Source: Pirellulaceae bacterium
GTDB taxonomy: Bacteria; Planctomycetota; Planctomycetia; Pirellulales; Pirellulaceae
DNA length: 64,000 nt
Direction of reading: 5' to 3'
Assembly: GCA_016784735.1 (NCBI GenBank)
Contig: JADHUC010000009.1
Location: 1 to 64,000, forward strand
This document shows, piece by piece, positions 27,194-50,069 of this stretch (the stretch's first letter is position 1; every line of letters begins with the position of its first letter). Both the position numbers and the translations under genes were made by a program. The notes under the pieces were generated by a model. The model made no database searches, was not told the origin of the DNA, and worked only from the letters and a program-made list of their open reading frames with translations.

Positions 27194-27545
27194 GACGCGT
27201 ACCATGTATCCGTACAAAGGCGGGAAACGATTACAGACTGCCGTACAATGTAACCCTTGCGGCGGAGAACAATCCAGTAGGAAATCGGCTGAACGCCAGC
27301 GGAATTACGCGCGGCGGATGGTGAATGCTAGCATCGGACGGTCAGGGCCCATCCGAATTTGAGGGGAGAATGCTCGCCACGGATGGCATCCAAGACCACG
27401 GATAGGAACACATCGGAGCAGACAAATTTCGTTCGCTCCTGTTCGTTTCTGCAGTCATCCAGTGGCTATCGCCGTTTCTTGCCACCCGTGTTGCCGCTCG
27501 CGTTCCACGGCTACCGGAGGGATTCAAGTAGGCGGACCATCAGAG
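27194..27545. other. Intergenic stretch upstream of the helicase fusion gene
   Basis: 352 bases between the 3' end of the HzsA-related gene and the start of the helicase gene, both on the minus strand. A 61-codon minus-strand frame (27342-27527) has no recognisable content and no ribosome site that I can see. ACGGAT occurs twice near 27377-27405, but I see no gene, no strong hairpin and no promoter I would defend. Confidence 0.6.
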
Positions 27546-33255: not shown

Positions 33256-33399
33256 CGCTCGGCCCAATTCGGATTGCGCACCGTCGGTCGATGTGAGCGC
33301 CGCACGCTGGTTGGTACCGTCGCTCCGAAGAAACGGTCTTCTTTTTGGAGCGAACCTCGTATACTGGTGTTATCAAACACTGTTTCAAGGTGCCGGACT

Positions 33400-36363
33400 A
33401 TGAAAACGCAACAGCCCGTCTTTGTCTTTCGTCACCTTCTTCCGTCTCTTATTCTGCCGGTCGTTCTGCTGGCGTGTTCTGGCCCATTGGCGGCTGCGGA
33501 GCTTCGTTTTGGCAACAGTATCGAATACGTCCATCCGGACGAGGTGGAAGTGGTGCAATACTGTCGCAAGGCAGGGATCGGCTATAACCTGAACAATCAA
33601 ACCAGCAATCCCGGCGGCGGCGGAATTGTCGATACGAAAGAGGGACGAATCATTGTTCTGTACTTTCGCGCCCAGCATTCCCTGACGCTCGAGCAGCTCA
33701 AGCCCCTGAGCAAGGCAACCCACCTGAGCAATTTCAATTGCCCCTCGTGGGCCGACGACGAAATCCTCGGTTTCTTCACGCACGCGGGACGCTTTCCGAA
33801 AGTCACCGGGCTGAGCATCTATGGCTCGAAAATCACTGACGAGGGTCTGGCCGGGTTGAAGAGTTTTCCTATCGTCGCTTCGTTGAACCTGGAATCGAAA
33901 TCTATCACAGACAAGGGAGTCCGGCACCTGTGCAAGGTTTCAACATTCAGCTTCTTACGATTGAATGCAACTCGAATTACCGACAAGGGTGTGTCCTATC
34001 TGACAGATCTGCCCAATCTTTCCTTTCTCGAGTTGAAAACGACACAGATCACCGATGACGGGCTGGAATACCTGGGCCGCTTACCGAAACTGCATACCCT
34101 TTACCTGGACAATACTTCGATAACCGGCAGCGGCATGAAGCATTTGGCACCACTGAAGCAGCTTCGATGGTTGAGCTTGAACAATACGCCTTTTCAGGAC
34201 CAGGGCCTGACCGAACTGGCGGAACATCCCAACCTCGCGAAGATCGAGGTGCTGTACCTGGCCAATACGAAAATCACTGATGCAGGATGCGACGCGTTTG
34301 AGAATCTGAATGATCTCATCGTGCTTACGGTCGATAAGACAGAGGTTACGGACAAGGGCATTCGCCACCTGAAAAATATGCCCGGGCTGTACAACCTGGG
34401 GCTCAGTGACAAGGTCACCAGCAAAGGCCGGAGATGGCTGGCCGAAAACGCTCGGTTTGCCCCTTCTCTGCAAACGCAGCTTCGCAAGGCAGCACGCGCC
34501 GCCCAGAATAGGAAGACGAATGAAATGGACCTGCAGGCTTTCCGGGCAAGTCTCAAAGGAACCGATGCGATCGTTTTCCACTTGGGACAGTCTTCACGCG
34601 ATTCGAAGACAGAAGAAGCGCGTCAGCAACTGTTGAAAATGAATGCCGACGCCATCGGGCCGATTCTCGACATGGTGGAGAAATGCAGCGAACAAGGCCA
34701 TCCGCTGGGTAAGGACAGTAGGTTCAAGTGGAACTTTCGCAATAACGCATCCGTTATTCTCCGGGCCGTTTCCACCAAGTCCATGCCGGCGCTGGCTGAC
34801 CACTTTGCCCAATCCTCCGGGAAACGCGAGGTGATTTCACGTGCACTGGAAAGTGGCGAAGGTGATATCATCCCGCATCTTGAGGTATGGCTCCAACACG
34901 AGTCCCCCCTGGTTCGCCTCGAGGCATTGCAGCAGTTGGCACGCCGGGCCACGGTTCGATGGTTTGGCCATGGCACGGCGGCTCACTCCACCAGCGAACA
35001 CAATTCGTTACACCTGTCCAAGTCGGGACGCAAACAGGTTTACTCTTTGCTTACCGACACGGATGCCAGTGTACAGCAGGCCGCCTGTACTGTGGTCGTT
35101 GCCGTTAACGATGATCATTCTGTGAAAGCGGAAATTCTGGCCAAGGCAGCACTGCCTGAAAAGAACTCCATGACTCTCTACAGAATGCAGGAAGCGTTGT
35201 TCTTCCTGGCTGACCAGCAGCCGATCGACAGCAAGGAACTGTTGGCGTTGATCAACGGATTCATGGTCGTACTGCGGAAATCGGATAACACAGAAGCGCA
35301 GCACATTGCCATGCGTCAACTGGGCAAACTCGGCGGAAAAGCCCAACCTGCGATCGGTCTGCTACAGGGTTTTCGAGAAGGGACGGACGAGAAACTTACA
35401 GCCGCGGCGGGACATGCCCTGGATCAGATCCGCCGATGTCCGATCACGTTGATGCGTGCGGCCGAAATACCTGTGGACGTCCAAAACCTGGTTTTCACGT
35501 TGAGCAGATATGATCAACAGGCCATTGACCGGGCGACCAAAGAGTTGGCGCGCCGGGGGCCGAGCATGGTCCGGCCGCTGTTGACCGCGGCGCGTGGCGA
35601 GGTCGATGAATACTATCCCCCAAAGGCCGCAGCGATTGTCGTTCAGTGGAAGCAGGAGGACGTCCTGCCTATGCTACGTCCCGTTTTCAACCAGAAGGGT
35701 ACTTGGGTGCGGTTGTTCGTTATCTACTCGATCAGCCAGATGAAGTGGAGTGAATTGCCAGATGTCGTCAAGGATTCCCTTGAGGGAGTCGACGCGAAAG
35801 TACGTAACCAGATGCGGAACTCGCTTTCAACGCTCGCCAAGAATACGACAGGTCGAGCGTCGCAGGAACTGGCCCGACTCATAGCCGCCGAATTGAAGCA
35901 CCCCATATCGGACTGGGGTCTTGCCAGCAGGCTGACCGACTCCTTGACCACGTGTTATCCAAGTTCCCGTGAAGTTCCGTCCTTGTTGATCGACATCCTC
36001 AATCAAGACGGACAATATACGTCAGCCTATGCCTGTCGCGCCCTGGGGAAAATTGCCCACGATCACTTGGCCGGCAAAACCGATGATCGCAAGCAGATCA
36101 TCGAAGCGATACTCGGCGTGCTCCAGACTACCAAGAACGAAGATCTCAAGAAGGAATGTATGGGGGCGCTCGCGCGGTTTGGCCCGGAGGCCCGATCGGC
36201 TCTTCCCACCCTGCGGCAGATCCAGAAGGGAGCTTCCAAGAACCTGGCCACGTCAGCAACGCATGCGATTACCAGTATTGACCGGCAAAGTAAACGGACG
36301 AACAGGAATCCACAAGAACCCGCAAGTGAAGATCCTCCTGGCGCCGAAGAGCCACCAGAGTGA
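33400..36363 (+). CDS. Exported leucine-rich-repeat + HEAT-repeat protein, 987 aa
   Basis: The ATG at 33400 begins a signal peptide (FRHLLPSLILPVVLLACSG, with a possible lipobox-like LLAC). Residues about 100-340 hold eight or nine 24-residue leucine-rich repeats of the L..L.L..T.ITD.GL..L type. The rest, about 380-960, is a HEAT/ARM-like array (ALQQLARRATVRWFG, AILAKAALPEKNS, YACRALGKIAHDHL, CMGALARFGPEARSALPTLR) ending in a Pro/Glu-rich tail. It is a typical planctomycete surface repeat protein that probably binds proteins or glycans. The caspase cluster begins 670 bases downstream on the same strand, but the large gap argues against one transcript. Confidence 0.85.
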   Translation: MKTQQPVFVFRHLLPSLILPVVLLACSGPLAAAELRFGNSIEYVHPDEVEVVQYCRKAGIGYNLNNQTSNPGGGGIVDTKEGRIIVLYFRAQHSLTLEQLKPLSKATHLSNFNCPSWADDEILGFFTHAGRFPKVTGLSIYGSKITDEGLAGLKSFPIVASLNLESKSITDKGVRHLCKVSTFSFLRLNATRITDKGVSYLTDLPNLSFLELKTTQITDDGLEYLGRLPKLHTLYLDNTSITGSGMKHLAPLKQLRWLSLNNTPFQDQGLTELAEHPNLAKIEVLYLANTKITDAGCDAFENLNDLIVLTVDKTEVTDKGIRHLKNMPGLYNLGLSDKVTSKGRRWLAENARFAPSLQTQLRKAARAAQNRKTNEMDLQAFRASLKGTDAIVFHLGQSSRDSKTEEARQQLLKMNADAIGPILDMVEKCSEQGHPLGKDSRFKWNFRNNASVILRAVSTKSMPALADHFAQSSGKREVISRALESGEGDIIPHLEVWLQHESPLVRLEALQQLARRATVRWFGHGTAAHSTSEHNSLHLSKSGRKQVYSLLTDTDASVQQAACTVVVAVNDDHSVKAEILAKAALPEKNSMTLYRMQEALFFLADQQPIDSKELLALINGFMVVLRKSDNTEAQHIAMRQLGKLGGKAQPAIGLLQGFREGTDEKLTAAAGHALDQIRRCPITLMRAAEIPVDVQNLVFTLSRYDQQAIDRATKELARRGPSMVRPLLTAARGEVDEYYPPKAAAIVVQWKQEDVLPMLRPVFNQKGTWVRLFVIYSISQMKWSELPDVVKDSLEGVDAKVRNQMRNSLSTLAKNTTGRASQELARLIAAELKHPISDWGLASRLTDSLTTCYPSSREVPSLLIDILNQDGQYTSAYACRALGKIAHDHLAGKTDDRKQIIEAILGVLQTTKNEDLKKECMGALARFGPEARSALPTLRQIQKGASKNLATSATHAITSIDRQSKRTNRNPQEPASEDPPGAEEPPE

Positions 36364-37035
36364 TGCTGGGCGGTGGGAAAGGCATACAGCCTGCGGGAAG
36401 TCCTGGCGACTCTACAGGTTGCAGGCTCCATACGCCTTTGCGCACTGGCGGCATGCGGTCGACGAAGTCGGCATCGTTTCGTCGAAGCTCGGCCATGGCT
36501 TCTCACGCTCGGCGCTGGTCTGGCGGACCGCCCAAGAACAGTCGAACGTTTCCCGGCGCGGGTGAGATGGTGACGTGTCTTCGGCATTTGATTCTTGATA
36601 TGGCAATCTGAGGATTCTTGGCAAGGAGTTAGGCCACTGACAGCCGATGGGCCGGTTCTCGGGCACAGAAGCCGAGCGTTGCGGTCTAGCACCTGAGTTT
36701 GCATCTCGATTCGCCACCCGCTAAAATGGCGGGACTGCAGTGTGTGAGATGTGCCGGAATCCGAACGGTTTTTCAAAGGGCAATGCGCGACCGAAAGACA
36801 AACGGAGCGGCGATTGAGAAGTCGCCTCGTCTTCCTGGCTGGGTAGGAAACCGCTTTTCCGGTCATTGTCAGAATCCACGTTCGACTTTGTCGGATGCCA
36901 ATAAGAACGAAAACGCTCAACGCTGCCGAAGGTTCGCAAACGATCCGATGGAGAGTGCGGGATACAATCGGCGCGTTTTGCACACAATGGAAAATACACA
37001 GTTGCGCATCCACTGAACGAAGCGGGAGGGTTCGC
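36364..37035. other. 672-base intergenic region before the caspase cluster
   Basis: It carries a short stretch matching the C-terminal tail of a sulfatase (see 36440-36530) and must contain the promoter of the caspase-CHAT genes. I find no other gene; the long minus-strand frame crossing it (36063-37049) is Arg/Ser/His-rich and overlaps real genes, so I treat it as a shadow. Confidence 0.6.
36440..36530 (-). pseudogene. Possible sulfatase C-terminal remnant
   Basis: On the minus strand, MAELRRNDADFVDRMPPVRK (about 36496-36437) parallels IAQLRKNNAGFVDRMTPPVR of the sulfatase pseudogene at 49.4 kb. The DNA underneath, CATGCGGTCGACGAAGTCGGC at 36452-36472, is 20/21 identical to 49475-49495. Upstream the frame is broken by a TGA. 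Too short to be sure; it could be a conserved tail of a lost gene or a recombination footprint. Confidence 0.45.
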
Positions 37036-40000
37036 ATGTCGAGGGACATCTATGCTCTGCTGGTTGGCATCAACGACTATTCGCCGGACGTGGGGAAGCT
37101 GAACGGCTGCCTGAACGACGTCGATCGTTTCCACGGCTACTTGACGGATAGATTTGGCCGGAGCGTACTTCATATCGAAGTCCTCAAGAACGCGGACGCC
37201 ACGCGCCCAAACGTCATCGAGCAATTCCGCACACACTTGTGCAAGGCCAAGGCGGATGATGTGGTCGTCTTCCAGTATTGCGGCCATGGTGCCCGCTGGA
37301 AATCGGCGAAGCCGTTCGAGGAGTTCTTTCCCGATGGCAAGGACGAGGGGCTCGTGTGTTACGATAGCCGCAAGCCGGGCGGTTTTGATTTGGCCGATAA
37401 GGAACTGGCCGTTTTGCTCGCCGAGGTGGCCAAAAACGATCCGCACATCGCCGTCATCCTCGATTGCTGCCATTCCGGTTCCGCCACGCGTGGTGCCGAC
37501 GATTTTACGCAGCTCAAAGCGAGGCAGACCCACGAAGTGCTCGACGAGAGACCGCTGGAGAGCTACCTGGATGGCTACTACGCCGAGCTACGCCAGCGCG
37601 GAGCGTCACTAGAGATCCCGGCCAGCCGCCATATCCTGCTCGCCGCCTGCCAGCGCGTGCAGAAAGCTTGGGAAGCCAGGGATCACAGTGGAGTGTTCAC
37701 CAGCACGCTGCTGGAGGTGTTGGGCAAATCAGGAACCGACATTTCCTACGCCGACCTGTTTGTGCGCTGCCGCGCCGCGGTGCGCAAGCGAGCCGATAAC
37801 CAGGACCCGCAGTTCGAGACCTACAGAAGTTTCAGTGCCTACAGCGGATTCCTCGGCCATCGGGCTTCCCAGACCGTGCGCCCTTACAGCGTCTACTTCG
37901 AAACAGGCGCCTGGCAGGTCGATTGCGGCGCGCTACACGGCCTGCCCAGCGATCCAGATAAGAAGGTCGAACTGGCCCTCTACCCGGAATCGAATCGGTC
38001 CCATTTGGCTGGACATGCCACGACGATTCAGGTAGGGCCTCAGAAAAGCGAATTAGAGCTGCTGGACATCGACGCCGACACGTCCACGCGTTATCAGGCC
38101 GAGATCACCAGCCTGCCCGTGCCGCCCTTGGCTGTGTACCTGGAAGGTGACGCCGAGCGGACGGAGTCCTTTCAGAAGTTCCTGGCAGCATCGGAAGATC
38201 GTTCGTTCGGCATTTCTCTGCTTACCGACGCGGAAGACGGAGCACGCTATACGCTGACCGCCGAGAATGGCTGCTACTTGCTGAGATTGCGCGAGACGGG
38301 CAAGTTGATCCAAGGGGCGAAGGGTCAATCGCAAAAGGCCGCTGACCACATGTTCGGGATTCTGAAGCGGGTCGCTGCTTGGGAGCGAGCTGTGAGACTG
38401 CAGAATCACGCCACCAAGATGGACCCGGACGATATCGAGTTCAAATACTTCGAGTCGATCGGAGACGAGCGCGAACATGAATACCGCAGCAGCGAAATCA
38501 CACTCGACATGACCTTGGAGAATGGGGAATGCAAGCCCGTATTCGGAAAGCTGAAGGCTATCAACCGGATGGCTCAGCCTCTGCACTTGCTGCTCGTGCA
38601 TTTGTCGGACCAATACGGAATCCAACCCTTATACAATGAACGAGTGGAGCCTACCGATTCGTGGTTCACCGTCACGTTAGATGGAAATGCCGAGTTCCAC
38701 TTGAAACTCGAAGATGACGAAGGTGACGTAGCGAATCACCAATTCAAACTCATTGTCAGCACCGAGAAAGTGGATGATTTCCTGTTAGCGCAAGAGCAAC
38801 TCGAACTCGGCAAGATTGTCTCGTTCCAATCAAACGATCGGGGAACACCTAAGGGCCTCGGTTTTGGCAAACCGCGCAAGAAGCTCGTCCACGAGAATGA
38901 ATGGTTTACCAAAGATCTGCATATCAAACTTGTCCGGCAACTCGACCGCGTTTCTGCCAACGATACGACGCTGGCCAATCGGCAGATCACCATCAAAGGG
39001 CACCCGTCGCTGCAAGCCAACATCAGCCTCTGCGCCGCCAAGACCGCGACGCGCGGCGTGGGGACGGGGTCGGACATCTACCGAGTCCTGGAACGCCAAG
39101 GGATGGAGATGGTGGACTTCTCCGCCACACGCGGCGACAGCGAGAGCATTCTGGAGTTGACCGACATCCAGAATCCCGAGGTCCTCGCAGAAGACCCGCT
39201 GGTGATCGAATTGGACGTCGAACTAGCGGACGACGAGTTCATCCTGCCGCTGGCGTTCGATGGCGAGCACATCCTGCTGACCGGCGACCCCTCGCGGGAT
39301 GACGAAGGCCGGACGCACATCAGCATCGACCACATCCCCGGGATCCCGGACAACCGCCGCAGCGTGGGCAAGGCGTTAAAGCTCTACTTCTTCAAAACCT
39401 ACCTTCGGCGCGAAAATGTCAACCGGCTGTGCTGGGTTGAATACAAAGACGATGGTTCGGCCGAGCGGCGCAGGAGCGGCGTGGCCGAGAAGGTCGCGGC
39501 CGCGGAGAATGTCTTGCTGCTGATTCACGGGATCATCGGCGACACTCGGGGAATTGCCGAGGGGCTGCGAAATGCCAAGGACGCGGACGGAAAGAGTGTC
39601 GATCAGAGATTCGACTTGGTGTTGAACTACGATTACGAAAACCTTAGCACGCCGATCTCCGAGACCGCAGTAATGCTGAAGCAACAGCTTAAGGAAATGG
39701 GCCTGCACGATAGCGACGACAAGCGACTGACGCTGCTGGTTCACTCGATGGGCGGATTGGTCTCACGTTGGTTCATCGAACAGGAAGGCGGCAACAAGGC
39801 CGTCGACCATTTGGTGATGTTCGGCACGCCGAACCGCGGGTCTCCTTTTGGCAAGGTCGGCGGAGCGCGGAAACTGTCGAGTCTGTTAACCACGCTTGCC
39901 ATCAACGCATTTCCAGCGTTCGCCCCATTCGGCGGGGCGCTGCTCTCGGTGCTAGTCCGATCCAAGAAGGTCACGCCAACGCTGGAGCAGATGAATCCTG

Positions 40001-40317
40001 CTTCGGATTTCATCAAGTCGCTGAATGCCAGTGACGATCCCGGCGTTCCGTACACGATCGTGGCCGGCGACATTCGCGATTATCAAGAGGAGTCGGACAG
40101 ACTGATCCCGCAATTGATCGCAAAGCTCGGCGGCGGAGTCCTATTCGATACGCTCTATCAGGACGCCGGCCACGACATCGCGGTCAGCGACGAAAGCATC
40201 CGCGCAGTCCCTGCCGACCGAACCCCAAGTCCCGAAAAGCGGGACGTAATCTGTCATCACCTGAACTATTTCGCTTCCGACGCTGGACTGAGCGCAATGG
40301 CGGCTGTGAAATGGTGA
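37036..40317 (+). CDS. Caspase-like (peptidase C14) / alpha-beta hydrolase fusion protein, 1093 aa
   Basis: The start at 37036 has GGGAGGG five bases upstream; the frame extends to 36895 without support. Residues 1-270 are a caspase-fold peptidase: YALLVGINDY, catalytic His84 in FQYCGHGARW, and catalytic Cys145 in LDCCHSGSATRG, with SRHILLAACQRVQKAWE and GVFTSTLLEVL completing the fold. Residues about 280-820 are beta-rich and unrecognised. Residues about 825-1090 are an alpha/beta hydrolase: LLLIHGIIGDTRG (oxyanion), LLVHSMGGLVSRW (nucleophile Ser904, PGAP1/lipase-like), FGTPNRGSPFG, and late DAGHDIAVS for the histidine. No signal peptide. It heads a three-gene run with two CHAT-STAND-WD40 proteins (25-base gap). 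Probably a protease-controlled lipase or esterase executioner. Confidence 0.88.
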   Translation: MSRDIYALLVGINDYSPDVGKLNGCLNDVDRFHGYLTDRFGRSVLHIEVLKNADATRPNVIEQFRTHLCKAKADDVVVFQYCGHGARWKSAKPFEEFFPDGKDEGLVCYDSRKPGGFDLADKELAVLLAEVAKNDPHIAVILDCCHSGSATRGADDFTQLKARQTHEVLDERPLESYLDGYYAELRQRGASLEIPASRHILLAACQRVQKAWEARDHSGVFTSTLLEVLGKSGTDISYADLFVRCRAAVRKRADNQDPQFETYRSFSAYSGFLGHRASQTVRPYSVYFETGAWQVDCGALHGLPSDPDKKVELALYPESNRSHLAGHATTIQVGPQKSELELLDIDADTSTRYQAEITSLPVPPLAVYLEGDAERTESFQKFLAASEDRSFGISLLTDAEDGARYTLTAENGCYLLRLRETGKLIQGAKGQSQKAADHMFGILKRVAAWERAVRLQNHATKMDPDDIEFKYFESIGDEREHEYRSSEITLDMTLENGECKPVFGKLKAINRMAQPLHLLLVHLSDQYGIQPLYNERVEPTDSWFTVTLDGNAEFHLKLEDDEGDVANHQFKLIVSTEKVDDFLLAQEQLELGKIVSFQSNDRGTPKGLGFGKPRKKLVHENEWFTKDLHIKLVRQLDRVSANDTTLANRQITIKGHPSLQANISLCAAKTATRGVGTGSDIYRVLERQGMEMVDFSATRGDSESILELTDIQNPEVLAEDPLVIELDVELADDEFILPLAFDGEHILLTGDPSRDDEGRTHISIDHIPGIPDNRRSVGKALKLYFFKTYLRRENVNRLCWVEYKDDGSAERRRSGVAEKVAAAENVLLLIHGIIGDTRGIAEGLRNAKDADGKSVDQRFDLVLNYDYENLSTPISETAVMLKQQLKEMGLHDSDDKRLTLLVHSMGGLVSRWFIEQEGGNKAVDHLVMFGTPNRGSPFGKVGGARKLSSLLTTLAINAFPAFAPFGGALLSVLVRSKKVTPTLEQMNPASDFIKSLNASDDPGVPYTIVAGDIRDYQEESDRLIPQLIAKLGGGVLFDTLYQDAGHDIAVSDESIRAVPADRTPSPEKRDVICHHLNYFASDAGLSAMAAVKW

Positions 40318-40342
40318 CTCCTCAAGAAATGGGAGGTGGGCC

Positions 40343-43300
40343 ATGTCGGACATGACCAGCAAACCAGCCATTTTCTTGGCGTTTGCAAACGATGCGGCCG
40401 GAGGTGCACGATACCTCCGAAATCTCGGCGCCGAGGCCAAGAGAATCCGAAGCTCCTTGGGGCAGGTCGACGAGCTGTGTGAGCTGGTGATGCAGGAAAA
40501 CGCCACGATCACCAGCATTCTCGATGCCTTTCAGCAATACCGAAATCGGATCGCAGTCTTTCATTACGGGGGCCATGCCGATGGCTTTCGGTTACTGTTG
40601 GAATCGGGAGAGGGGCACCTCGCGGCGGCTGATGGACGAGGGTTGGCTGAGTTCCTGGGAAACCAGTCAGGTCTGCAACTGGTCTTCCTCAACGGATGCT
40701 CAACCGAACAGCAGGTCGACGAGTTGCTACGAGCCAATGTCTCGTCCGTGATCGCCACCACGCAGGCTGTTGATGACGAAGTGGCAACTGAATTCGGTGG
40801 CCGCTTCTATCAGGGCCTGGCGAGTGGGGCCACCGTAGCCACCGCCTATAAAGAAGCGGCTGCCGCTATCAAGTCGGCGAAGGGCACTGATCCGCGAGCG
40901 CTGTATTTCGGAGGCCACAGGCCCAACTCGCTGATGGTAGCAGATCGTTGGCCGTGGATCATGGCCTGCCGTGACGGCGCTGAAGCTGTGAAGAATTGGA
41001 ATCTGCCCGATGCAGCGGACAACCCACTTTTCGGCCTGCCCGATCTACCCGAGATTCAATTCCCCAGCACTCCATTTCAGTTCTTGAAACGATTCACGCG
41101 GAATGAGGCCAGAGTGTTTTTCGGTCGTGGTTACGAGATTCGCGATCTCTATCACAAGGTGATTGGCGGCGAGAGAGACATGTCGATTATTCTCCTGTAC
41201 GGGCAGTCTGGCGTGGGAAAATCGTCGCTATTGGATGCTGGCTTGGTTCCGCGGTTAGAGTCCGACTATGAAGTCCGCTACCTGCGCCGTAGCCGTGAAG
41301 GCGGTTTGGTCGACACGTTGCAGCTCGCCTTCCTCCCGGAAGCACACGGAGATTCTCTTGGAGAGGCGTGGCAACATAAGGAAAAAAAGCTTGGAAAGCC
41401 GCTGATTGTCATTCTCGACCAGGTGGAAGAAGTCTTCACACGGCCAAACCAATTGCTGCCAAATGAGCTGGACGAGTTCCTTCGCACACTACGTCGTATC
41501 TTTCTTCGCCGCGAAAACCACCCCGCCGGCAAGCTCATTCTCAGCTTCCGAAAGGAATGGCTGCCTGAGCTGGAAACGGCATTGAATCTGCATCGTCTGG
41601 CTCGGGAACGTGTCTTTCTCGATCGGCTCAGCAGACGCGGTGCAATCGAGGCGGTTCGTTTGTCTGCCGAGGTCGTCGACCATTTTGGGCTCGAAGTCGA
41701 TGAGAAGCTGCCCGAGACAATCGCCACAGATCTGCTGGCCGATCGAGATTCCGCTGTGTCGCCAACTTTGCAGGTTCTCTTGTCCACCATGTGGGCTGCG
41801 ACCTCCAACGATGACGGCAATCCACGCAGATTCACAATGGGCTTGTACAATCAACTCAAAACGCGCGGCCTCCACTTGGGAGATTTCCTTGATCGACAAT
41901 TGATGCTGATTCGGAAATCCGATCCGTCCGTCGTGGATTCTGGATTGGCGTACGACGTGCTCGCGTACCATACCACAGAACTAGGAACGGCCGAGCAACG
42001 GACCGAAGGCGAATTGGATAACGCTTACGGACGACCGAAGGACAAGACGCAGGCTCTCGAGCAGATCGCGTACGGCGAGCGACGGAGCGCCGTCGATCGG
42101 CTCGTCCGAGAGTGCATGGACAACTACTTGCTGGTCGAGACTTCCACAGACGGTGGAAAGAGGATGACACGTCTGGCCCACGACACCCTGGGTCTCTTAG
42201 TCCGAAAACGTTTCGACGAGTCGGACTGTCCGGCTCAGCGGTCCTACCGCATACTCCGCAGCCGAGCCAGAGACTGGGAAGGCGACAAGGCTGGAACGCC
42301 TTTGGACGAAGATGATCTTTCGCTGGTGAGGGCAGGGTGGTCCGCCGTTCGCAACTGGACACAGGCAGAGGGAAGGTTGATCTCGGCGAGCCTCGACGCA
42401 AAGGGTAAACGCCGCGAGTCGCAACGACGCAGACGCTTTCTTCTGATCGCGTTGATCGTGACAACGCTGCTTGCTGGTGGGATTTCAATCGGCGCTCTCG
42501 CATTCATGGTTCGAACCGGGAAAGACGCACAGGATATCGTCAAAGGGAGCAAACGAGCTGTAAGCAAAATGGACAAGGAATCGGAGGAATTCCGGCAGTT
42601 GATCGCCGATCTTGGACGCTACAACGCAGAGCTCAATCGAATACCAGGAATATGGGCAGAGGATCCACAGAAAGCACGTGAGATGCTTGTCGACAAGGAC
42701 TTGTTTCCTGAGGCGTTGCGGGACTTCACATGGGGCTATCTGCATCACCAATGCGGCGACGCGGGAACGCTCCTGGACGCGAAACACGCATGCTCCGTTG
42801 CTTTTTCCCATGACGGAAGCGCGCTGATAGCGGGCGAATTGAATGGGCGAGTGAATGTCTGGGATGTTTCCAGCGGGAACTTGAAGTGGTCGCTGACGAC
42901 GGACGCGGATTCTCTTCGGTCGATCTGTTCCCACCCGAGCGGTCCGTACTTCCTGACAGTTAGCAGGCAACAATCGGATCTTTGGGATATCAACAAATCC
43001 GAGAAAATGGAGATCGGGATCGAGGGGGATTTCCGCGGGGTAGGTGGGGCGATCTCTTCGTGTGGAAAGTTCGTCGCCCTGGGACAACAGCGCAATGTGC
43101 GAGAACGCAATGTGCGAGTCTGGAGTCTTGAAAGTGGCGATCTGCTTCAAGAATACGAAATACGAGACTTCAACGGACGAGCGGGAATCTCCTTTTCTAA
43201 GGATAGCCAATTGCTTGCGGCTGCAGGAACCGAGCTTAGAATAGAACGCGCTCCGATCGAAAGTGGGCAGGACGAGCGAGGGCAAGATCGGAAAATCACT

Positions 43301-44779
43301 TATTCGTGTCAACTCTACATATGGGAGTTGGATTCAGATACGCCGGTACGCAAGATCGAGCCTGATCCTATGACGCATGTTTCGGCGATCGCTTTTTCAC
43401 CAGTGAGCGCGAAACTCGCCATCGCCGGGGGAGTCGGCACGTCATATAGCGTTGTCGGTTTGTGGAGTCTACCCGAAGGGCGGCTGGTCTGGTCGCAGCC
43501 ATGTGAACGCACCGTAACTTCGCTTGTCTTTACGGAAGACGGGACGAAGCTTTTCGCAGGTTCCTACGAGGGCATCCACGTCAGGAACACGGCGTCGGGT
43601 GAGTTGATCTCTACCTATCGCAAGTGGTCCGGGACGAAAGATGTCGATATTTCGCCCGACGGCAAAACCGTCGCAGCAGCAGAGCTTGACGGGGTCAGGC
43701 TCATCCCTTTGGCTCTGTCCGAAGCTCGAAAAGATGCTGGCGATTCTCGCATCCACACCATTACGGAGGATGAACGCCGCGGCGATCGGGACGCTTATGG
43801 TGTGCTCGCGTTCTCTCCGGACGGGCACAGACTCGCATCGGCGACCGATCGTTCAATTGTCAAAGTCTGGGATGTGGCGACGGGAACATTGCTGCACACG
43901 ATACCGTACATATCCGATTTCGCGGGCTTTGAGGACCTCCGGGGGCCGACGATTGTCGACCTCACGTATATCGACAACGGGAGATTGGCGGCAGCAAGCG
44001 AAACACGAGAGACGTTTGAAGGTCGCATCGAGCTTATCGATATTGAATCGGGGGAGAGGACGAGGCCATTCGACGCGAGCGGCCCAGCGACGGCCATCGT
44101 GTCGATGGAAGAAGAAGGCTCATTCGCCGCATACGGAAGAGTCTCCGTATTCTATCCGACAACTGGTACTCGCACTGATCAGCATGCCCTCGGCGTGTGG
44201 AAAACGGACGACCTTTCTGCCGCAGAAATGGCCGTCCCCACTGATTCGCCCATGTACGCCATCGCGTGGTCGGGTGAGAGGCGTTTGATTGCCGTTGGCG
44301 GCGGAGAAGAAAATGACCCCAGAATTCGTTTCTGGAGTTTGGCCTCGAAAGACTGGCTGCAGGATGACCTGGATGGTCACCCTCGCGCTTTCGTGCGATG
44401 CATGGCGTTCTCTCCCGATGGCAAGTCGCTGATCTCCGGAGGGATAAGACACGTCAAAGTCTGGGACGTCGAGGACCGCACGCTCCGTTTCTCTCTTCCT
44501 TTCAAAGGCCCCCGTGTCTTCTCCGTGGTAGTATCTCCCTACGGCGACACTCTGGCATGTACGGATGGCAGAAGCATCGCACTGATTGACTTGCTCACAG
44601 GCCAACGACGTGGAGCACTCGATGGTCATCATGCCGTAGTCACCTCGCTTGATTTCTCGCCGGACGGGACGATTCTGGCATCTTGTGACAAACTTGGCGT
44701 GATCCGGTTGTGGAAAGCGACTCCGACCCCAGACGGCGGAGCGGCGTCGTCTGTTGGTGATCGAAAACGAACAGAGTGA
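40343..44779 (+). CDS. CHAT protease - STAND NTPase - transmembrane - WD40 protein (first paralog), 1478 aa
   Basis: Residues 1-190: CHAT peptidase (caspase-HetF-TPR fold) with His78 in HYGGHAD and Cys119 in LVFLNGCST. A conserved FTRNEARVFFGRGYEIRDLY segment leads into a STAND-type NTPase: Walker A YGQSGVGKSS (287-296), Walker B LIVILDQVEEVF (D359), then LILSFRKEWLPELE and a winged-helix-like region. A single membrane span (about 695-718, IALIVTTLLAGGISIGALAF) follows a run of arginines, so the N-terminus should face the cytoplasm. About 815-1465 are WD40 blades (VNVWDVSSG, VKVWDVATG, VKVWDVEDR, LDFSPDGTILAS). GGGAGG precedes the ATG. Likely a ligand-triggered oligomerising protease. Confidence 0.9.
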   Translation: MSDMTSKPAIFLAFANDAAGGARYLRNLGAEAKRIRSSLGQVDELCELVMQENATITSILDAFQQYRNRIAVFHYGGHADGFRLLLESGEGHLAAADGRGLAEFLGNQSGLQLVFLNGCSTEQQVDELLRANVSSVIATTQAVDDEVATEFGGRFYQGLASGATVATAYKEAAAAIKSAKGTDPRALYFGGHRPNSLMVADRWPWIMACRDGAEAVKNWNLPDAADNPLFGLPDLPEIQFPSTPFQFLKRFTRNEARVFFGRGYEIRDLYHKVIGGERDMSIILLYGQSGVGKSSLLDAGLVPRLESDYEVRYLRRSREGGLVDTLQLAFLPEAHGDSLGEAWQHKEKKLGKPLIVILDQVEEVFTRPNQLLPNELDEFLRTLRRIFLRRENHPAGKLILSFRKEWLPELETALNLHRLARERVFLDRLSRRGAIEAVRLSAEVVDHFGLEVDEKLPETIATDLLADRDSAVSPTLQVLLSTMWAATSNDDGNPRRFTMGLYNQLKTRGLHLGDFLDRQLMLIRKSDPSVVDSGLAYDVLAYHTTELGTAEQRTEGELDNAYGRPKDKTQALEQIAYGERRSAVDRLVRECMDNYLLVETSTDGGKRMTRLAHDTLGLLVRKRFDESDCPAQRSYRILRSRARDWEGDKAGTPLDEDDLSLVRAGWSAVRNWTQAEGRLISASLDAKGKRRESQRRRRFLLIALIVTTLLAGGISIGALAFMVRTGKDAQDIVKGSKRAVSKMDKESEEFRQLIADLGRYNAELNRIPGIWAEDPQKAREMLVDKDLFPEALRDFTWGYLHHQCGDAGTLLDAKHACSVAFSHDGSALIAGELNGRVNVWDVSSGNLKWSLTTDADSLRSICSHPSGPYFLTVSRQQSDLWDINKSEKMEIGIEGDFRGVGGAISSCGKFVALGQQRNVRERNVRVWSLESGDLLQEYEIRDFNGRAGISFSKDSQLLAAAGTELRIERAPIESGQDERGQDRKITYSCQLYIWELDSDTPVRKIEPDPMTHVSAIAFSPVSAKLAIAGGVGTSYSVVGLWSLPEGRLVWSQPCERTVTSLVFTEDGTKLFAGSYEGIHVRNTASGELISTYRKWSGTKDVDISPDGKTVAAAELDGVRLIPLALSEARKDAGDSRIHTITEDERRGDRDAYGVLAFSPDGHRLASATDRSIVKVWDVATGTLLHTIPYISDFAGFEDLRGPTIVDLTYIDNGRLAAASETRETFEGRIELIDIESGERTRPFDASGPATAIVSMEEEGSFAAYGRVSVFYPTTGTRTDQHALGVWKTDDLSAAEMAVPTDSPMYAIAWSGERRLIAVGGGEENDPRIRFWSLASKDWLQDDLDGHPRAFVRCMAFSPDGKSLISGGIRHVKVWDVEDRTLRFSLPFKGPRVFSVVVSPYGDTLACTDGRSIALIDLLTGQRRGALDGHHAVVTSLDFSPDGTILASCDKLGVIRLWKATPTPDGGAASSVGDRKRTE

Positions 44780-44815
44780 TTCCTCTGACAGTGTACCGAC
44801 CAAACATCGACCATT

Positions 44816-47800
44816 ATGAACAAGCCAATCATCTTACTGGCGTTTGCCAACAACCGTGACGACACCGTCGGCTATTTACGGAATCTGCCCGACGAAGCGC
44901 GGTGGGTGCGGGACGTGCTGAGTTCCGCCGAGCAGGCCGGGTTGTGTGAAGTGGAAGTGCGATCGAATTGCACGGCCAGTGACGTATTCCAGGTGTTTCA
45001 GGATCCGAGGTTCCGCAACCGCATCGCCATCTTCCACTATGGAGGTCATGCCAACGGCTACCAACTGTTGCTGGAATCGTCGGAGGGTCAGGCGGCAGCG
45101 GCGGACGCCGGTGGGCTGGCCGCGTTTCTCGCGCAGCAACAAGGGCTGCAACTGGTGTTTCTGAACGGCTGTTCGACGCAGCAGCAGACCCGTGGGTTGC
45201 TCGACGCGAACGTCTCGGCGGTGATTTCCACGTCACGTGCCATCGACGACCAGGTGGCCACCGACTTTGCCCGCCAGTTCTATCAAGGGCTGGCGGGCGG
45301 GGCGACGATTCGTACGGCCTACAACGAAGCCGAAGCTGCGGTGCAGATGGCCAAAGGTGGCAAGACGCGAGCGCTGTACTACGGCGGCCCGGACGATTCG
45401 CGAAGCCAACAGGTGGACGACCGCTGGCCCTGGAATCTGGATTTGCGTGAAGGTTCTGAGAAGGCCGCCCAGTGGAACCTGCCCGAGGCGGTGAATGACC
45501 CCTTGTTCGGTTTGCCGCCGCTGCCGGAACAAGATTTGCCGGAAAGCCCCTATCGGCATTTGAACTGGTTCACCCGCAAGGATGCCGAGGTGTTCTTCGG
45601 GCGTGGCCATCAAATCCGCGAGCTATACGACCGTCTGACCGCCCCTCGCACAGCACCGATCATACTGTTCTACGGCCAGTCGGGCGTGGGCAAGTCGTCC
45701 ATCCTCGCAGCCGGACTCCTTCCCCGCCTCGAGCGAGACCACGAAGTCCGCTATTTGCGGCGCACCCAAGGTGGGCTGCTGGATACTCTTCAGTTGGCAT
45801 TCTTACCGGAAGCGTCCGACGTGCCGATCGAAAAGGCCTGGCGGGCGAAAGAGAAACGAGCGGGCAAGCCGCTGATCGTGTTCCTGGACCAAGTGGAAGA
45901 AGTCTACACACGTACTATTGCAGACCTGCCCGACGAGTTGGAGCAACTGTTGCTGGTGGTCAAGGCCGCGTTCGGCGATCCGAGTCGTAGGCCACAAGGC
46001 AAGCTGGTACTGGGTTTCCGCAAAGAGTGGCTGGCCGAGTTGGAAACGCAACTGGTCGACTACAAATTGCCGCAAACCAAGGTGTATCTGGAACCGCTAG
46101 ACCGCCGCGGCATCATCGAGGTGGTCTCGGGACCGGCTCGATCCGAGCCGTTGCGCGACCGCTACGGGCTGACCGTCGAAGATGGACTGGGCGAGATCAT
46201 CGCCGACTTTCTCATGGAGGACCGCGGCTCGGCAATTGCTCCAACCTTGCAGATTCTGCTAACCAAGATGTGGAGCAAGGCAACGGAGGCCAACTACGAT
46301 CACCCGCATTTCAGCCTGGGACTTTACCAACACTTGAAACGCGATGGAATTCTGCTGACTGACTTCCTCGATCAACAAATCGCGGCGTTTCGCCAGCGGT
46401 ATCCCAAGGCGACGGATTCAGGATTGTTGCTGGATATCCTGGCGCTACATACCACGCCACTGGGCACGGCCGACCAGTGTTCCGTCGAGCAGTTGCAGGA
46501 ACAATACGCTCACGTGGGTGACACGCTACCCGCGCTACTGCAGCATTGCCAAGATCTGTATCTGTTGACGGTGGTGACCCGCCCGCTGAAAGACAGCCCT
46601 AGAACGACTCGCTTGGCACACGACACGTTGGCTCCACTGGTCCGCAAACGATTCGACGAATCGGACAAACCAGGACAGCGGGCCCGCGGGATCCTGGAAA
46701 ACCGCACGCGGTCGTGGCTCACAGCGAAAGATCTGGCTTTGGTCAAAAAGGGCACTGCTGGAATGCGTTGTCTTACGGACGAAGAAAACGCAGTACTTGT
46801 AAGAAGCCGCAGAAGACGGCTGGCTGGGAGATTGGCCTGGGTATTCGCCGCGACGGTCGCGATTCTCCTTATCACCGTTGCCGGTTACTTTTCCATACAA
46901 ACCCGTATCAAAAACGCTGAGGCAGCCGTGGCGGAACAGCAGCGAATCGCCCAGCAATTGGCGGCTCACGCACAGGCCGAGTTTGCACGTAGCGGACAAC
47001 CACAGTTCCTTGAGCGAAGCGCCTTGCTTTCGATCGAATCGTTGCGGCGCCAGTCATCGTTGCAGGCGGAATTGACGTTGCGCTCGGCCATGGCACGTCT
47101 CCCACGAGAAGTGCTTCGCAGGAAATTGCCCGACGGTGTCCTCCATGTGACCTTCAGCCCTTCTGGACGGTACTTGGGTGTCGGCGGAAGTCGCAATCTC
47201 CGTGTGATCGCCACAACCGACTGGCATGATGTCATTCAAGAAGAGATTGCGTACAACCTCGATGCGATTGCCTTCAGCCGAGACAGCCGCTACGTGGCTG
47301 TAGCCCATCAGTTTGGAACGAGGATCTATTCTCTAGAGACCGGTGAACCACCTAGAGATCTGAAAACGATGGCGATAGCTAGGAAACTGGCGTTCCATCC
47401 TGTGCAGGATTGGCTGGCTAGTTGGCCAGGCGCGGTGGTCGACCGGGAAAATAGACTGGCAGCCGTAACGGTCCAGGATGTGGATACGGAACACGTCGTT
47501 AACGGAGATGAGCATACACATGACTGGCGAGTGGGTAACCTTGCATTTAGCCAAGACGGAACATTTCTGGCGAGTTGCGGCGGTGACCGAAGGATCATTG
47601 TGAGTGATACCGACGCCTGGAAAGTGATCGACGAATTCGAGCTTTCCGACACCATTTGGGATGTTTCGTTTTCGCCGAAGCAGAAGTTCATCGGTGCGGC
47701 TGTCCGTGATGGTCATGTGCTCGTGCGAGATTTCGAGAATAGGGAGACAATTCGCGACTGGCGTCATTCGGGAGTTTTCGCAGTGGCATGGAGTCCGGAC

Positions 47801-49378
47801 GGGATGACTCTGGCGTCGGCGGGTGACAGAACTTGTTCTTTGTGGGACGTCGAAACGGATCGGGAGAAGGTACGCTTGATGCACGCGGCCGAGGTCAGCA
47901 AAGTCCGTTTCGCCCCCAATAACGAATGGGTCGCCACTGCAAGCGAGGACTTCACGGCTCGAGTCTGGGATTCTCGGGATGGGAGCGAACTGGTTCGGGT
48001 GGTTCATGAGAAGGAGGTATACGATATCGCGATAAGCCCCGACTGCAAACGATTGGCAACCGCGAGTCTAGACAACTTTGTACGCGTTGTCGATGCCTCG
48101 CGTTTCGGAGAGAAGATGCGGTTGCCGCTGGACCTCAGTCCGTGCGACATAAGTCTGATGTGCGCCGGTCCCCTTGGGAAACATGTAGCAGTGACAGATG
48201 GCGACCATGAGAAACCACATCGTGCGTATCTCGTTGATACGGATACCGGAACTGTGGCTGTGGTGGACTTACCCTCGATGGCAGTCAAGATGAGTTTCGG
48301 TCAAAAAGGAGATTTGCTGGCCATCGGTTGCAGCGGCGGTGATGTCGCAGTCGCGTCCCCAAGTAGAGCAAAAGCTCCAAGATTCTTGTCCACTCCTGAA
48401 TCACGCTTTGTGCAGAAATCGTGCAAGGTGTTGGTGTTGAGTGCTTCGGCAAAGCTCCTCTGCGCGGGATTCCAAAATGATCATACATACCTTTGGGATC
48501 TTGATTCTCGGGAGCCACCCTTGCTGCTGCAAGACACGCAGCACTCTTCCGATGCTGATTTCCATCCTGACGAGTCTCTTGTGGCCGTTGCCGGAAAACA
48601 GGGGATACAGCTCGTTTCCACGGAAGACACCACAAAGCGGCAGACTCTCAGCCTGGACGATAATGTCAACCATTTGAGATTTTCATCCGACGGCCAATGG
48701 TTGTGTGCGTCGGGCGGTATCGCGGAAACCGAATTCTTGCGGATTTGGAAGATTAGCGACGCGCCGATGGAACAAGAGGGTCAGCCCAAGCCGATTCACG
48801 ACCTTCCAGTGATGGGACCTGTGCAGGCGATGAGCCTGAGCCCGGACGGCCGGTATGCCATTACGGTTTCTGATACGACCAACCTAGTGACAGATTCTGG
48901 TCTGGGGCAAGTATGGGACATCCGAGACGGCCGGGAGGTGTTCCGGTTCTCTGCAAGAGAGCCAGGGTTACTTCCGTCGAGCCCAGGGTCGACGCCCGGG
49001 ATTCTATGCTTCGAGAGCGACCGGCAACTGATGGGCAACACCGCGAAGGAGCATTACTTCGCAGTGTTCGGTTACTCCTCAGATCTGCGGATCTGGAGCG
49101 TGGAAGCGCAGCGTGAAATCGGGCGCATTTGCCACCTCGAACAGGTGACTGACGCCGCCCTGATAGGCAACCAACGTTTCGTCGTATCGCTCGCTGGACA
49201 GACCCTTCAGGTTTCACTATTGGGGCAGGAGGATCTGGTCGCCGAAGCCTGTTCACGTCTCACTCGCGACCTTTCACGTGAAGAATGGCGGGATTATGTA
49301 GGGGCGGAACCTTATCGCACGACGCGCGACTTCGATTCAAAACCCGTACTACCCCGGCAGGATGTCGATCTCAATTAG
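44816..49378 (+). CDS. CHAT protease - STAND NTPase - transmembrane - WD40 protein (second paralog), 1520 aa
   Basis: Same order as the preceding gene: CHAT with His78 (HYGGHAN) and Cys119 (LVFLNGCST), FTRKDAEVFFGRGHQIRELY, Walker A YGQSGVGKSS at the same position, LIVFLDQVEEVY, LVLGFRKEWLAELE. A membrane span (about 670-692, WVFAATVAILLITVAGYFSI) after Arg-rich sequence is followed by a coiled coil (NAEAAVAEQQRIAQQLAAHA) not seen in the first paralog. WD40 blades fill about 770-1490 (VIVSDTDAW, CSLWDVETD, ARVWDSRDG, LSPDGRYAITVS). The first 600 residues align closely with the paralog, whereas the propellers differ strongly. It starts 36 bases after the preceding stop with a weak ribosome site. 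Duplicated sensor with probably a different ligand. Confidence 0.9.
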   Translation: MNKPIILLAFANNRDDTVGYLRNLPDEARWVRDVLSSAEQAGLCEVEVRSNCTASDVFQVFQDPRFRNRIAIFHYGGHANGYQLLLESSEGQAAAADAGGLAAFLAQQQGLQLVFLNGCSTQQQTRGLLDANVSAVISTSRAIDDQVATDFARQFYQGLAGGATIRTAYNEAEAAVQMAKGGKTRALYYGGPDDSRSQQVDDRWPWNLDLREGSEKAAQWNLPEAVNDPLFGLPPLPEQDLPESPYRHLNWFTRKDAEVFFGRGHQIRELYDRLTAPRTAPIILFYGQSGVGKSSILAAGLLPRLERDHEVRYLRRTQGGLLDTLQLAFLPEASDVPIEKAWRAKEKRAGKPLIVFLDQVEEVYTRTIADLPDELEQLLLVVKAAFGDPSRRPQGKLVLGFRKEWLAELETQLVDYKLPQTKVYLEPLDRRGIIEVVSGPARSEPLRDRYGLTVEDGLGEIIADFLMEDRGSAIAPTLQILLTKMWSKATEANYDHPHFSLGLYQHLKRDGILLTDFLDQQIAAFRQRYPKATDSGLLLDILALHTTPLGTADQCSVEQLQEQYAHVGDTLPALLQHCQDLYLLTVVTRPLKDSPRTTRLAHDTLAPLVRKRFDESDKPGQRARGILENRTRSWLTAKDLALVKKGTAGMRCLTDEENAVLVRSRRRRLAGRLAWVFAATVAILLITVAGYFSIQTRIKNAEAAVAEQQRIAQQLAAHAQAEFARSGQPQFLERSALLSIESLRRQSSLQAELTLRSAMARLPREVLRRKLPDGVLHVTFSPSGRYLGVGGSRNLRVIATTDWHDVIQEEIAYNLDAIAFSRDSRYVAVAHQFGTRIYSLETGEPPRDLKTMAIARKLAFHPVQDWLASWPGAVVDRENRLAAVTVQDVDTEHVVNGDEHTHDWRVGNLAFSQDGTFLASCGGDRRIIVSDTDAWKVIDEFELSDTIWDVSFSPKQKFIGAAVRDGHVLVRDFENRETIRDWRHSGVFAVAWSPDGMTLASAGDRTCSLWDVETDREKVRLMHAAEVSKVRFAPNNEWVATASEDFTARVWDSRDGSELVRVVHEKEVYDIAISPDCKRLATASLDNFVRVVDASRFGEKMRLPLDLSPCDISLMCAGPLGKHVAVTDGDHEKPHRAYLVDTDTGTVAVVDLPSMAVKMSFGQKGDLLAIGCSGGDVAVASPSRAKAPRFLSTPESRFVQKSCKVLVLSASAKLLCAGFQNDHTYLWDLDSREPPLLLQDTQHSSDADFHPDESLVAVAGKQGIQLVSTEDTTKRQTLSLDDNVNHLRFSSDGQWLCASGGIAETEFLRIWKISDAPMEQEGQPKPIHDLPVMGPVQAMSLSPDGRYAITVSDTTNLVTDSGLGQVWDIRDGREVFRFSAREPGLLPSSPGSTPGILCFESDRQLMGNTAKEHYFAVFGYSSDLRIWSVEAQREIGRICHLEQVTDAALIGNQRFVVSLAGQTLQVSLLGQEDLVAEACSRLTRDLSREEWRDYVGAEPYRTTRDFDSKPVLPRQDVDLN

Positions 49379-49447: not shown

Positions 49448-50069
49448 TCAAGGACCTGCACGAACCGGCGGTGTCATGCGGTCGACGAAGCCGGCGTTGT
49501 TCTTCCGCAGTTGGGCGATGGCTGCGGCACGGAACTGGTTCAGTCGCTGGGCATGTTCGGGTTTGACGGCCAGATTGTTTAGTTCGTCTGGATCTTCGCG
49601 CAGATCGTACAGTTCCTCCAGGTCGTTGGGAATCAAAGGTCGTACGTATTTGTAGCGTCCTTCGCGCAGCATCACGTACCAGGGGGCGCCGCCGTGGTAT
49701 GCGTCTTTGCCGGTTGGGATTACGTCGGTGTCGGATCCGTACTTGCGGCCGGTGGCCGTCATCAGCATCGGGTGCGGCCAATCGGCTGTCGGCTCGGCCA
49801 GTAGAGGCGAGAGGTTGTGGCCGTGCATGGGCCAGGGGAGGTCGATTCCTGCGAAGTGGAAGAACGTGGGGACAAGATCCACGCCGCCCACGGGCGCGGG
49901 ACAGACGCTGCCTTGTGGGATGCGCCCAGGCATGCTGTTAACCGTCCGTGTAGATGAACAGGATATTCGGCCGTTTCGATCGAGCCGCCGCTCGGGCAGA
50001 ACGAATCTCCAAGCCGCAGATGATCAACAGACCCAACAGCACCAAATGCAGTTCACGATTTGGGAGCAT
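49448..50069 (-). pseudogene. Sulfatase pseudogene with a large internal deletion
   Basis: From an ATG at 50069 the minus strand reads a signal peptide and then SKRPNILFIYTDG, the N-terminal metal-binding start of an arylsulfatase. A TAA follows at 49940-49938. Directly after, the C-terminal part of a sulfatase resumes: RIPQGSVCPAPVGGVDLVPTF, then LREGRYKYVRPL, LEELYDLREDPDELNNLA and FVDRM to a stop at 49448. The central few hundred codons, including the C/S-x-P-x-R formylglycine site, are gone, so it cannot be active. It lies head-on against the second CHAT-STAND gene, 69 bases beyond its stop. Confidence 0.85.

Follow-up and report, generated by a model that had tools for sequence, protein, structure and literature searches.

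The three genes at positions 37036 to 49378 of the window, i.e., of the whole stretch of 64,000 nucleotides of Pirellulaceae DNA analyzed here, on balance appear to encode a transmembrane, apoptosome-like circuit for cell death (or arrest), likely serving immunity against mobile elements or rivals. Gene 1 encodes a caspase fused to a lipase-like hydrolase (caspase-hydrolase), and genes 2 and 3 each encode a predicted receptor with CHAT protease, nSTAND1 NTPase, transmembrane (TM) helix and WD40 repeats (Table 1). We propose that the propeller would sense a ligand or an envelope disturbance, upon which the STAND NTPase would oligomerize at the membrane and cluster the CHAT protease as initiator, which in turn would cleave, or otherwise switch on, the caspase-hydrolase as executioner. 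In the last step, the caspase would degrade cellular proteins and the lipase-like arm would attack an ester, perhaps a membrane lipid, so that the cell would be killed or arrested. Varied receptors, with WD40, TPR, HEAT or periplasmic-binding sensors and an initiator that is either CHAT or another caspase, may feed one executioner, and the presence of two paralogous receptors here might be due to this proposed sharing.

Table 1. Features of the locus, with positions in the window.
Feature	Position	Strand	Evidence or remark
Gene 1, caspase-hydrolase, 1093 aa, predicted executioner	37036..40317	+	Pfam C14 and DUF7379, full-length homologs, AF2 model
Caspase domain (Peptidase_C14, metacaspase/orthocaspase type)	37051..37821	+	Pfam, fold, conserved dyad
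Caspase dyad, His84	37285-37287	+	
Caspase dyad, Cys145	37468-37470	+	
Lipase-like alpha/beta hydrolase domain	39514..40260	+	DUF7379 match, fold, triad
Hydrolase triad, Ser904	39745-39747	+	
Hydrolase triad, Asp1047	40174-40176	+	
Hydrolase triad, His1075	40258-40260	+	
Gene 2, CHAT-nSTAND1-TM-WD40 receptor, 1478 aa	40343..44779	+	Pfam, TM estimate
Gene 2, CHAT protease domain	40343..40972	+	Pfam CHAT; His78 40574-40576, Cys119 40697-40699, invariant in alignment
Gene 2, nSTAND1 NTPase	41072..42190	+	Walker A GQSGVGKSS 41201-41227
Gene 2, predicted single TM helix, aa 699-717	42437..42493	+	Hydropathy; RRRR on N-terminal side
Gene 2, WD40 repeats, predicted extracytoplasmic sensor	42779..44722	+	Pfam
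Gene 3, CHAT-nSTAND1-TM-WD40 receptor, 1520 aa	44816..49378	+	Pfam, TM estimate
Gene 3, CHAT protease domain	44816..45445	+	Pfam; His78 45047-45049, Cys119 45170-45172
Gene 3, nSTAND1 NTPase	45545..46630	+	Walker A GQSGVGKSS 45674-45700
Gene 3, predicted single TM helix, aa 676-694	46841..46897	+	Hydropathy
Gene 3, WD40 repeats, predicted extracytoplasmic sensor	47258..49015	+	Pfam
Sulfatase 3' end remnant, left island edge	36447..36500	-	Direct repeat of 49470-49523, 76% identity; frame reads ..AMAELRRNDADFVDRMPPVR
Sulfatase 3' end remnant, right island edge	49470..49523	-	Part of broken sulfatase gene, N-terminal piece nearby

The caspase-hydrolase and the two receptors

The genes are consecutive on the plus strand with gaps of 25 and 36 nt, as given in the preliminary description, and the domains, catalytic dyads and Walker A motifs listed there were recovered by Pfam matches over the cut-offs, TM estimates and conservation in alignments. 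The start of gene 1 was placed at 37036 and not at the longer ORF start 36895, as its homologs begin at the same methionine. Peptidase_C14 was matched at aa 6-262 (E 4.6e-23, 82.5 bits) and the alpha/beta hydrolase family DUF7379 at aa 827-997 (E 2.1e-18), both over the Pfam cut-off, and the middle part of the protein (approximately aa 310-800) is mostly beta. Profile, caspase fold and His/Cys dyad identify gene 1 as a metacaspase/orthocaspase (C14), and against the EACC1-type caspase model NF047832 it scored 47.1 bits, below the cut-off of 140. In the AlphaFold2 (AF2) model, built from an alignment of 39 homologs (mean pLDDT 80.3), the caspase domain resembled GSU0716 (3bij; Z 26.0, 2.8 A over 241 residues) and Arabidopsis metacaspase-9 (Z 24.2), and the hydrolase resembled the lipase BlEst2 (Z 20.2) and the phospholipase PlaB (Z 19.6). 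In the family alignment, all 39 members keep the caspase His and Cys; of the hydrolase triad, Ser is kept in 33, Asp in 38 and His in 37 of them, the nucleophile being replaced by G, E or D in the other six. Since the dyad is invariant while the hydrolase serine is lost in these six, the caspase is the core activity and effector, and the lipase arm is usual yet dispensable, its action therefore not being essential everywhere; this revises the initial view, which had the hydrolase arm make the attack. Comparison of the linker across caspases revealed no partner-specific cleavage site in the caspase-hydrolase; Arg163 in this linker, considered as a site for CHAT, was discarded because it is also found in 66 of 73 caspases without hydrolase.

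Genes 2 and 3 are paralogs, since their products are 53% identical over the CHAT-STAND region. Pfam matches were obtained for CHAT (gene 2, E 4.5e-10, 39.9 bits; gene 3, E 8.9e-9, 35.6 bits; cut-off 24), for nSTAND1 (gene 2, E 3.9e-29, 102.9 bits; gene 3, E 8.4e-33, 115 bits; cut-off 27.1) and for WD40 (E 2.3e-32 and 5.2e-39, respectively, both over the cut-off), while NACHT matches were seen only below cut-off and in relatives. Across related CHAT domains the Cys is present in 74 of 75 and the His in 65 of 75, eight of the other ten being alignment gaps, and both proteins combine profile and dyad for a CHAT protease with profile and Walker A motif for nSTAND1. A CHAT-STAND AF2 model was obtained from an alignment of eight sequences (pLDDT 80.9). 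The modelled CHAT domain of gene 3 matched the activated SAVED-CHAT filament 8tl0 far above all others (Z 24.0, 2.1 A over 194 residues), and a sequence profile of the CHAT-STAND region recognized the same structure as its only clear PDB relative (E 2.5e-22). The modelled NTPase of gene 3 resembles ORC/Cdc6, the plant NLR NRC2, NOD2 and Avs4. Thus, the structural check asked for at the outset placed the caspase in the metacaspase fold and CHAT in the SAVED-CHAT fold, with AlphaFold models and fold matches taking the place of catalytic distances. A repeat search of the receptor genes detected neither DGR-like nor other long repeats.

Genomic setting, recurrence and mobility

The source genome, a MAG of 11.66 Mb with 79% completeness, contains three CHAT genes, three caspases and six nSTAND1 proteins over the cut-off, and two of the three CHAT genes lie directly downstream of one of the three caspases. 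PADLOC returned only generic matches for genes 2 and 3 and only a generic caspase model for gene 1, and none of its Avs families matched the window genes up to E 0.1. No classical defence operon flanks the locus, neither a Cas family nor an MBL-fold nuclease was present among the scanned flanking genes, Rfam gave no match, and promoter and terminator scans yielded sites no more numerous than in shuffles. The diverged sulfatase remnants bracketing the island may mark its insertion route. Just upstream of the island, on the same strand, a 1029-aa leucine-rich and HEAT repeat protein is encoded (33274-36363), the gene having a lower GC3 (0.638), like genes 2 and 3. The product of 21101-27217 of the window (2038 aa) combines the helicase modules AAA_11/AAA_12 and UvrD; with GajB-, DpdJ- and MkoA-like matches in PADLOC, it could act in defence or merely be an SF1 helicase fusion of large size.

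When 84,980 species genomes were scanned for the caspase-hydrolase, 80 loci were obtained, and the counts of this and the other surveys are not independent, as these overlap (L086 is G727, L088 lies in G756, L097 is contig 5 of G752 and L112 is L039). Full-length homologs were found in Planctomycetota, Pseudomonadota, Bacteroidota, Cyanobacteriota, Chloroflexota, Actinomycetota, Thermodesulfobacteriota, Calditrichota and Deinococcota, with some outside named groups, and the module of caspase-hydrolase and CHAT- or caspase-STAND protein recurs in at least nine phyla with a varying form of the partner. A quick tree of the caspase-hydrolases, with long branches, mixes phyla and has Electrothrix, Variovorax and one bacterium outside the named phyla nearest to the planctomycete clade. 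Order-wide, among 397 genomes including the source, the caspase-hydrolase was present in six, CHAT-STAND in six and both in five; without the source (396 genomes), the respective numbers were five, five and four (Fisher p 2.5e-8). CHAT-STAND lies directly downstream of the caspase-hydrolase in L086, L087, L088 and L127, the order of the window (caspase-hydrolase, CHAT-STAND, CHAT-STAND) is found exactly in L183 of genome G739, and G756 has two such operons, one with CHAT-STAND-WD40-HEAT and the other with caspase-STAND-WD40 followed by CHAT-STAND. A STAND gene within 10 kb was detected in 21 of 53 caspase-hydrolase loci as compared to none of 30 Planctomycetota caspases without hydrolase (p 1.4e-5, not phylum-matched), and in 7 of 14 as compared to the same 0/30 when restricted to Planctomycetota (p 9e-5). 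CHAT within 10 kb was less specific (26/53 loci, 7/30 control caspases) and was dropped as a specific mark of caspase-hydrolases. Neither CHAT nor STAND lies within 10 kb in about 40% of the caspase-hydrolase loci.

The partners were sorted into (a) CHAT-nSTAND1 fused to WD40, WD40 plus HEAT or TPR (window, L086, L087, L088, L109 and others), (b) unfused CHAT and nSTAND1 genes, in some cases together with one for WD40 (L096, L131 and L103, the latter with two tandem sets), (c) a second caspase in place of CHAT on the STAND protein (L100, L104, L107, L116, L117, L128), (d) CHAT proteins without nSTAND1 (L114, L119, L126 and others) and (e) no CHAT or STAND neighbour. The second caspase of type (c) has an intact dyad in 14 of 14 cases, and L184 harbors both initiator types within one operon. 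In some genomes of type (e), e.g., Thermoflexibacter ruber, CHAT-STAND proteins with 51-54% identity are encoded elsewhere. Hence, the independent scattering considered in the preliminary description does not apply to most loci, which are syntenic, yet certain caspase-hydrolases occur alone or in genomes that encode CHAT-STAND at another place.

Three further arrangements were observed. In Fischerella and related cyanobacteria (L102, L105, L106, L108, L113), a solitary caspase-hydrolase occupies a conserved neighbourhood with no CHAT or STAND next to it, which points to a second role, perhaps a domesticated one. In the actinomycetes Humibacillus, Terrabacter and Intrasporangium (L139, L145, L148, L150, L156, L160, L163-L165), CHAT directly upstream of a hydrolase-less caspase constitutes a related two-gene pair. 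On contig G365:C168, a kinase-nSTAND1-FGE-sulfatase protein (L040:1379-6004, minus strand) has a broken CHAT-nSTAND1 gene on one side and, on the other, a caspase-hydrolase that has lost its hydrolase serine; the arrangement may represent a copy of the system in decay or after remodelling.

Full-length caspase-hydrolases were also found on four plasmids, each time beside another caspase-fold peptidase: a divergent CHAT gene on the conjugative Rhizobium pRlX4, TPR-CHAT on Anabaena pANA01, a second caspase on Deinococcus pDAETH-2 and, on the conjugative Nostoc pNLP1, a second caspase within a single fused protein (L193:3491-12664, beside an IS1380 transposase). This fusion of 3057 aa has the order caspase-hydrolase(lipase)-caspase-nSTAND1-TM-Peripla_BP_6, with a weak TM segment at aa 2590-2608 between STAND and binding domain that is preceded by basic residues, and it is the strongest single argument for executioner and receptor acting together. 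Moreover, integrases adjoin L112, L103 and L088, and a TIR-TPR gene lies beside both alphaproteobacterial loci (L096 and L131); in phages, only one weak partial match was found. The Pacificimonas system is preceded upstream by a fusion of CHAT with OmpA domains (L096:7248-9965), which would put a CHAT protease in the periplasm. The conserved operon, the co-occurrence in genomes and the natural fusion show that the three genes form a functional unit whose coupling is conserved, in accordance with the system initially proposed.

Predicted topology, direction of the proposed cascade and likely purpose

According to hydropathy estimates, a hydrophobic helix is located 68-142 aa after STAND in 36 of the 41 distinct STAND proteins of these loci, with a mean net charge of +4.4 in the 15 residues before it and +0.5 after it. 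In three of the five proteins without TM (one of L083 and two of L135) the frame is broken or fragmentary, L085 is not associated with a caspase-hydrolase, and the intact receptor of L100 is a real exception. Furthermore, both split WD40 proteins of L103 start with a sequence that, read by eye, resembles a signal peptide. The conserved inside-positive TM, the signal peptides on split sensors and the periplasmic-binding sensor of the fusion strongly suggest a cytosolic location of CHAT and STAND, with the sensor on the outer side of the inner membrane; the propellers, likened to Avs sensors in the preliminary description, would thus probably be extracytoplasmic, unlike those of Avs. A cytosolic Avs- or NLR-like antiphage system, in which WD40 binds a phage protein in the cytoplasm and the hydrophobic segment merely anchors, would agree with the STAND fold resembling Avs4, NOD2 and plant NLRs, with Avs systems consisting of STAND plus effector, with the mobile-element context and with the TM-less receptor of L100, but is rather improbable given the topology signals just described and the lack of a match to Avs models.

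With respect to the direction of the cascade, the architecture and the precedent of SAVED-CHAT (PMC11229360) suggest that CHAT would act on the caspase, and the earlier assumption that CHAT starts a proteolytic cascade is supported by this analogy; CHAT would then activate the caspase-hydrolase by proteolysis. A reverse cascade, with the caspase-hydrolase activating and CHAT executing, or two proteases working in parallel on different targets, would be compatible with both peptidases being intact, with an order that is not fixed by sequence and with the absence of a partner-specific cleavage site in the linker comparison; either is doubtful, however, as sensor and switch are found only on the CHAT- or caspase-STAND proteins, the caspase-hydrolase bears an additional enzyme domain and lacks a known sensor, and SAVED-CHAT heads its cascade in type III-B CRISPR (PMC11229360). 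As to purpose, we infer an immune or death role of the circuit from its mobility (integrases, plasmids), patchiness, sensor variability and TIR-TPR neighbours. Regulated proteolysis or stress signalling without death, in which the caspase trims targets and the lipase remodels lipids during envelope stress or development, was also weighed; orthocaspases have been proposed to function in homeostasis and differentiation (PMC7517822), and the solitary loci conserved at one site in Fischerella-type cyanobacteria look vertically kept. We regard this reading as unlikely, since the patchy distribution, the phylum-mixing tree, the plasmid and integrase association and the interchangeable sensors and initiators follow the pattern of conflict systems. 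That three unrelated signalling genes became neighbours by chance is hardly credible: CHAT-caspase pairing alone is indeed not specific, as seen from the control caspases, but only three CHAT and three caspase genes exist in 11.66 Mb, and synteny is repeated, alongside co-occurrence and a natural fusion.

Relation to known systems

In Avs (AVAST) proteins, a STAND switch lies between an effector at the N terminus and a repeat sensor at the C terminus, and phage terminase or portal is recognized in the cytosol. This order of domains and an Avs4-like NTPase fold are shared by the receptors of the window, which differ in having nSTAND1 with a membrane helix, a probable extracytoplasmic sensor and a separate caspase-lipase executioner. 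In Craspase, TPR-CHAT is the partner of the gRAMP/Cas7-11 effector, whereas no TPR precedes CHAT here and no Cas family occurs in the scanned flanking genes. A proteolytic cascade of SAVED-CHAT and PCaspase in type III-B CRISPR, with SAVED-CHAT at its head, was reportedly described by Steens et al. in 2024. The window system resembles this cascade, which confers immunity through proteolysis (PMC11229360), in that SAVED-CHAT is its closest solved CHAT relative by sequence and fold and in that a CHAT protease is paired with a separate caspase in both. However, CHAT begins at residue 1 and is fused to nSTAND1-TM-WD40 in the window, whereas it comprises chain residues 286-466 in 8tl0; no SAVED was among the families matched, no Cas10 or second messenger was seen, and the caspase carries a lipase domain, unlike PCaspase.

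An alpha/beta hydrolase gene is always found next to those for caspase-fused VMAP proteins (Kaur et al., 2020, PMC7159879), and the MoxR-vWA-VMAP ternary systems share with the window the combination of caspase and alpha/beta hydrolase as well as an occurrence in similar multicellular bacteria; here, by contrast, the NTPase is nSTAND1 and the hydrolase is fused to the caspase. VMAP-C had no match in the source genome (79% complete, the same search being silent in control genomes too); among 24 genomes with caspase-hydrolase, seven were matched by this model and 17 were not. Caspases are also found in operons with AP-ATPases (Kaur et al., 2021, PMC8195603). In the multi-gene defence locus Canu, a caspase activates an MBL-fold nuclease (PMC12799240); a caspase within a proteolytic activation step is common to both systems, whereas such a nuclease is missing among the scanned neighbours here. 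In the CARD-NLR-like LypABC and bacterial gasdermin systems, two peptidases and a STAND ATPase, a set comparable to that of the window, drive lysis (PMC13236601), but LypA combines a trypsin-type peptidase with a CARD, its ATPase partner falls into the CARD-NLR clade, and neither lipase nor hydrolase is mentioned.

The combination of caspase-lipase and CHAT-nSTAND1-TM receptor, which the preliminary description could not assign to a described system, was not found described in the open-access full texts searched either. The works on VMAP, AP-ATPase, Canu and LypABC systems cited above do not describe it, and the defining features tested for these families are absent here; it falls among the known circuits of STAND-controlled caspase-fold proteases. 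In the animal apoptosome, APAF-1, caspase-9 and caspase-3 act together. Similarly, a STAND NTPase, a WD40 sensor and initiator and executioner caspase-fold proteases come together here, with the differences that the receptor spans the membrane and carries the initiator protease in the same chain and that the executioner is fused to a hydrolase. The circuit is apparently a real, undescribed relative of the animal apoptosome. Only tentatively do we extend this to a widespread transmembrane apoptosome, plasmid-borne and present in at least nine phyla, in which outward sensors would act via STAND on a CHAT or caspase initiator and further on a shared caspase-lipase hitting protein and membrane.

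Rhodopirellula solitaria, Flectobacillus, Variovorax and Pacificimonas are cultured hosts open to direct tests. To our knowledge, bacterial STAND/NLR immune receptors described so far are intracellular sensors; if the proposed circuit is true, a receptor that senses outside and drives a caspase cascade inside would be a bacterial analogue of a death receptor and apoptosome in one chain. Moreover, the logic of initiator and executioner proteases, with many receptors converging on one executioner, would then be ancient and mobile in bacteria.
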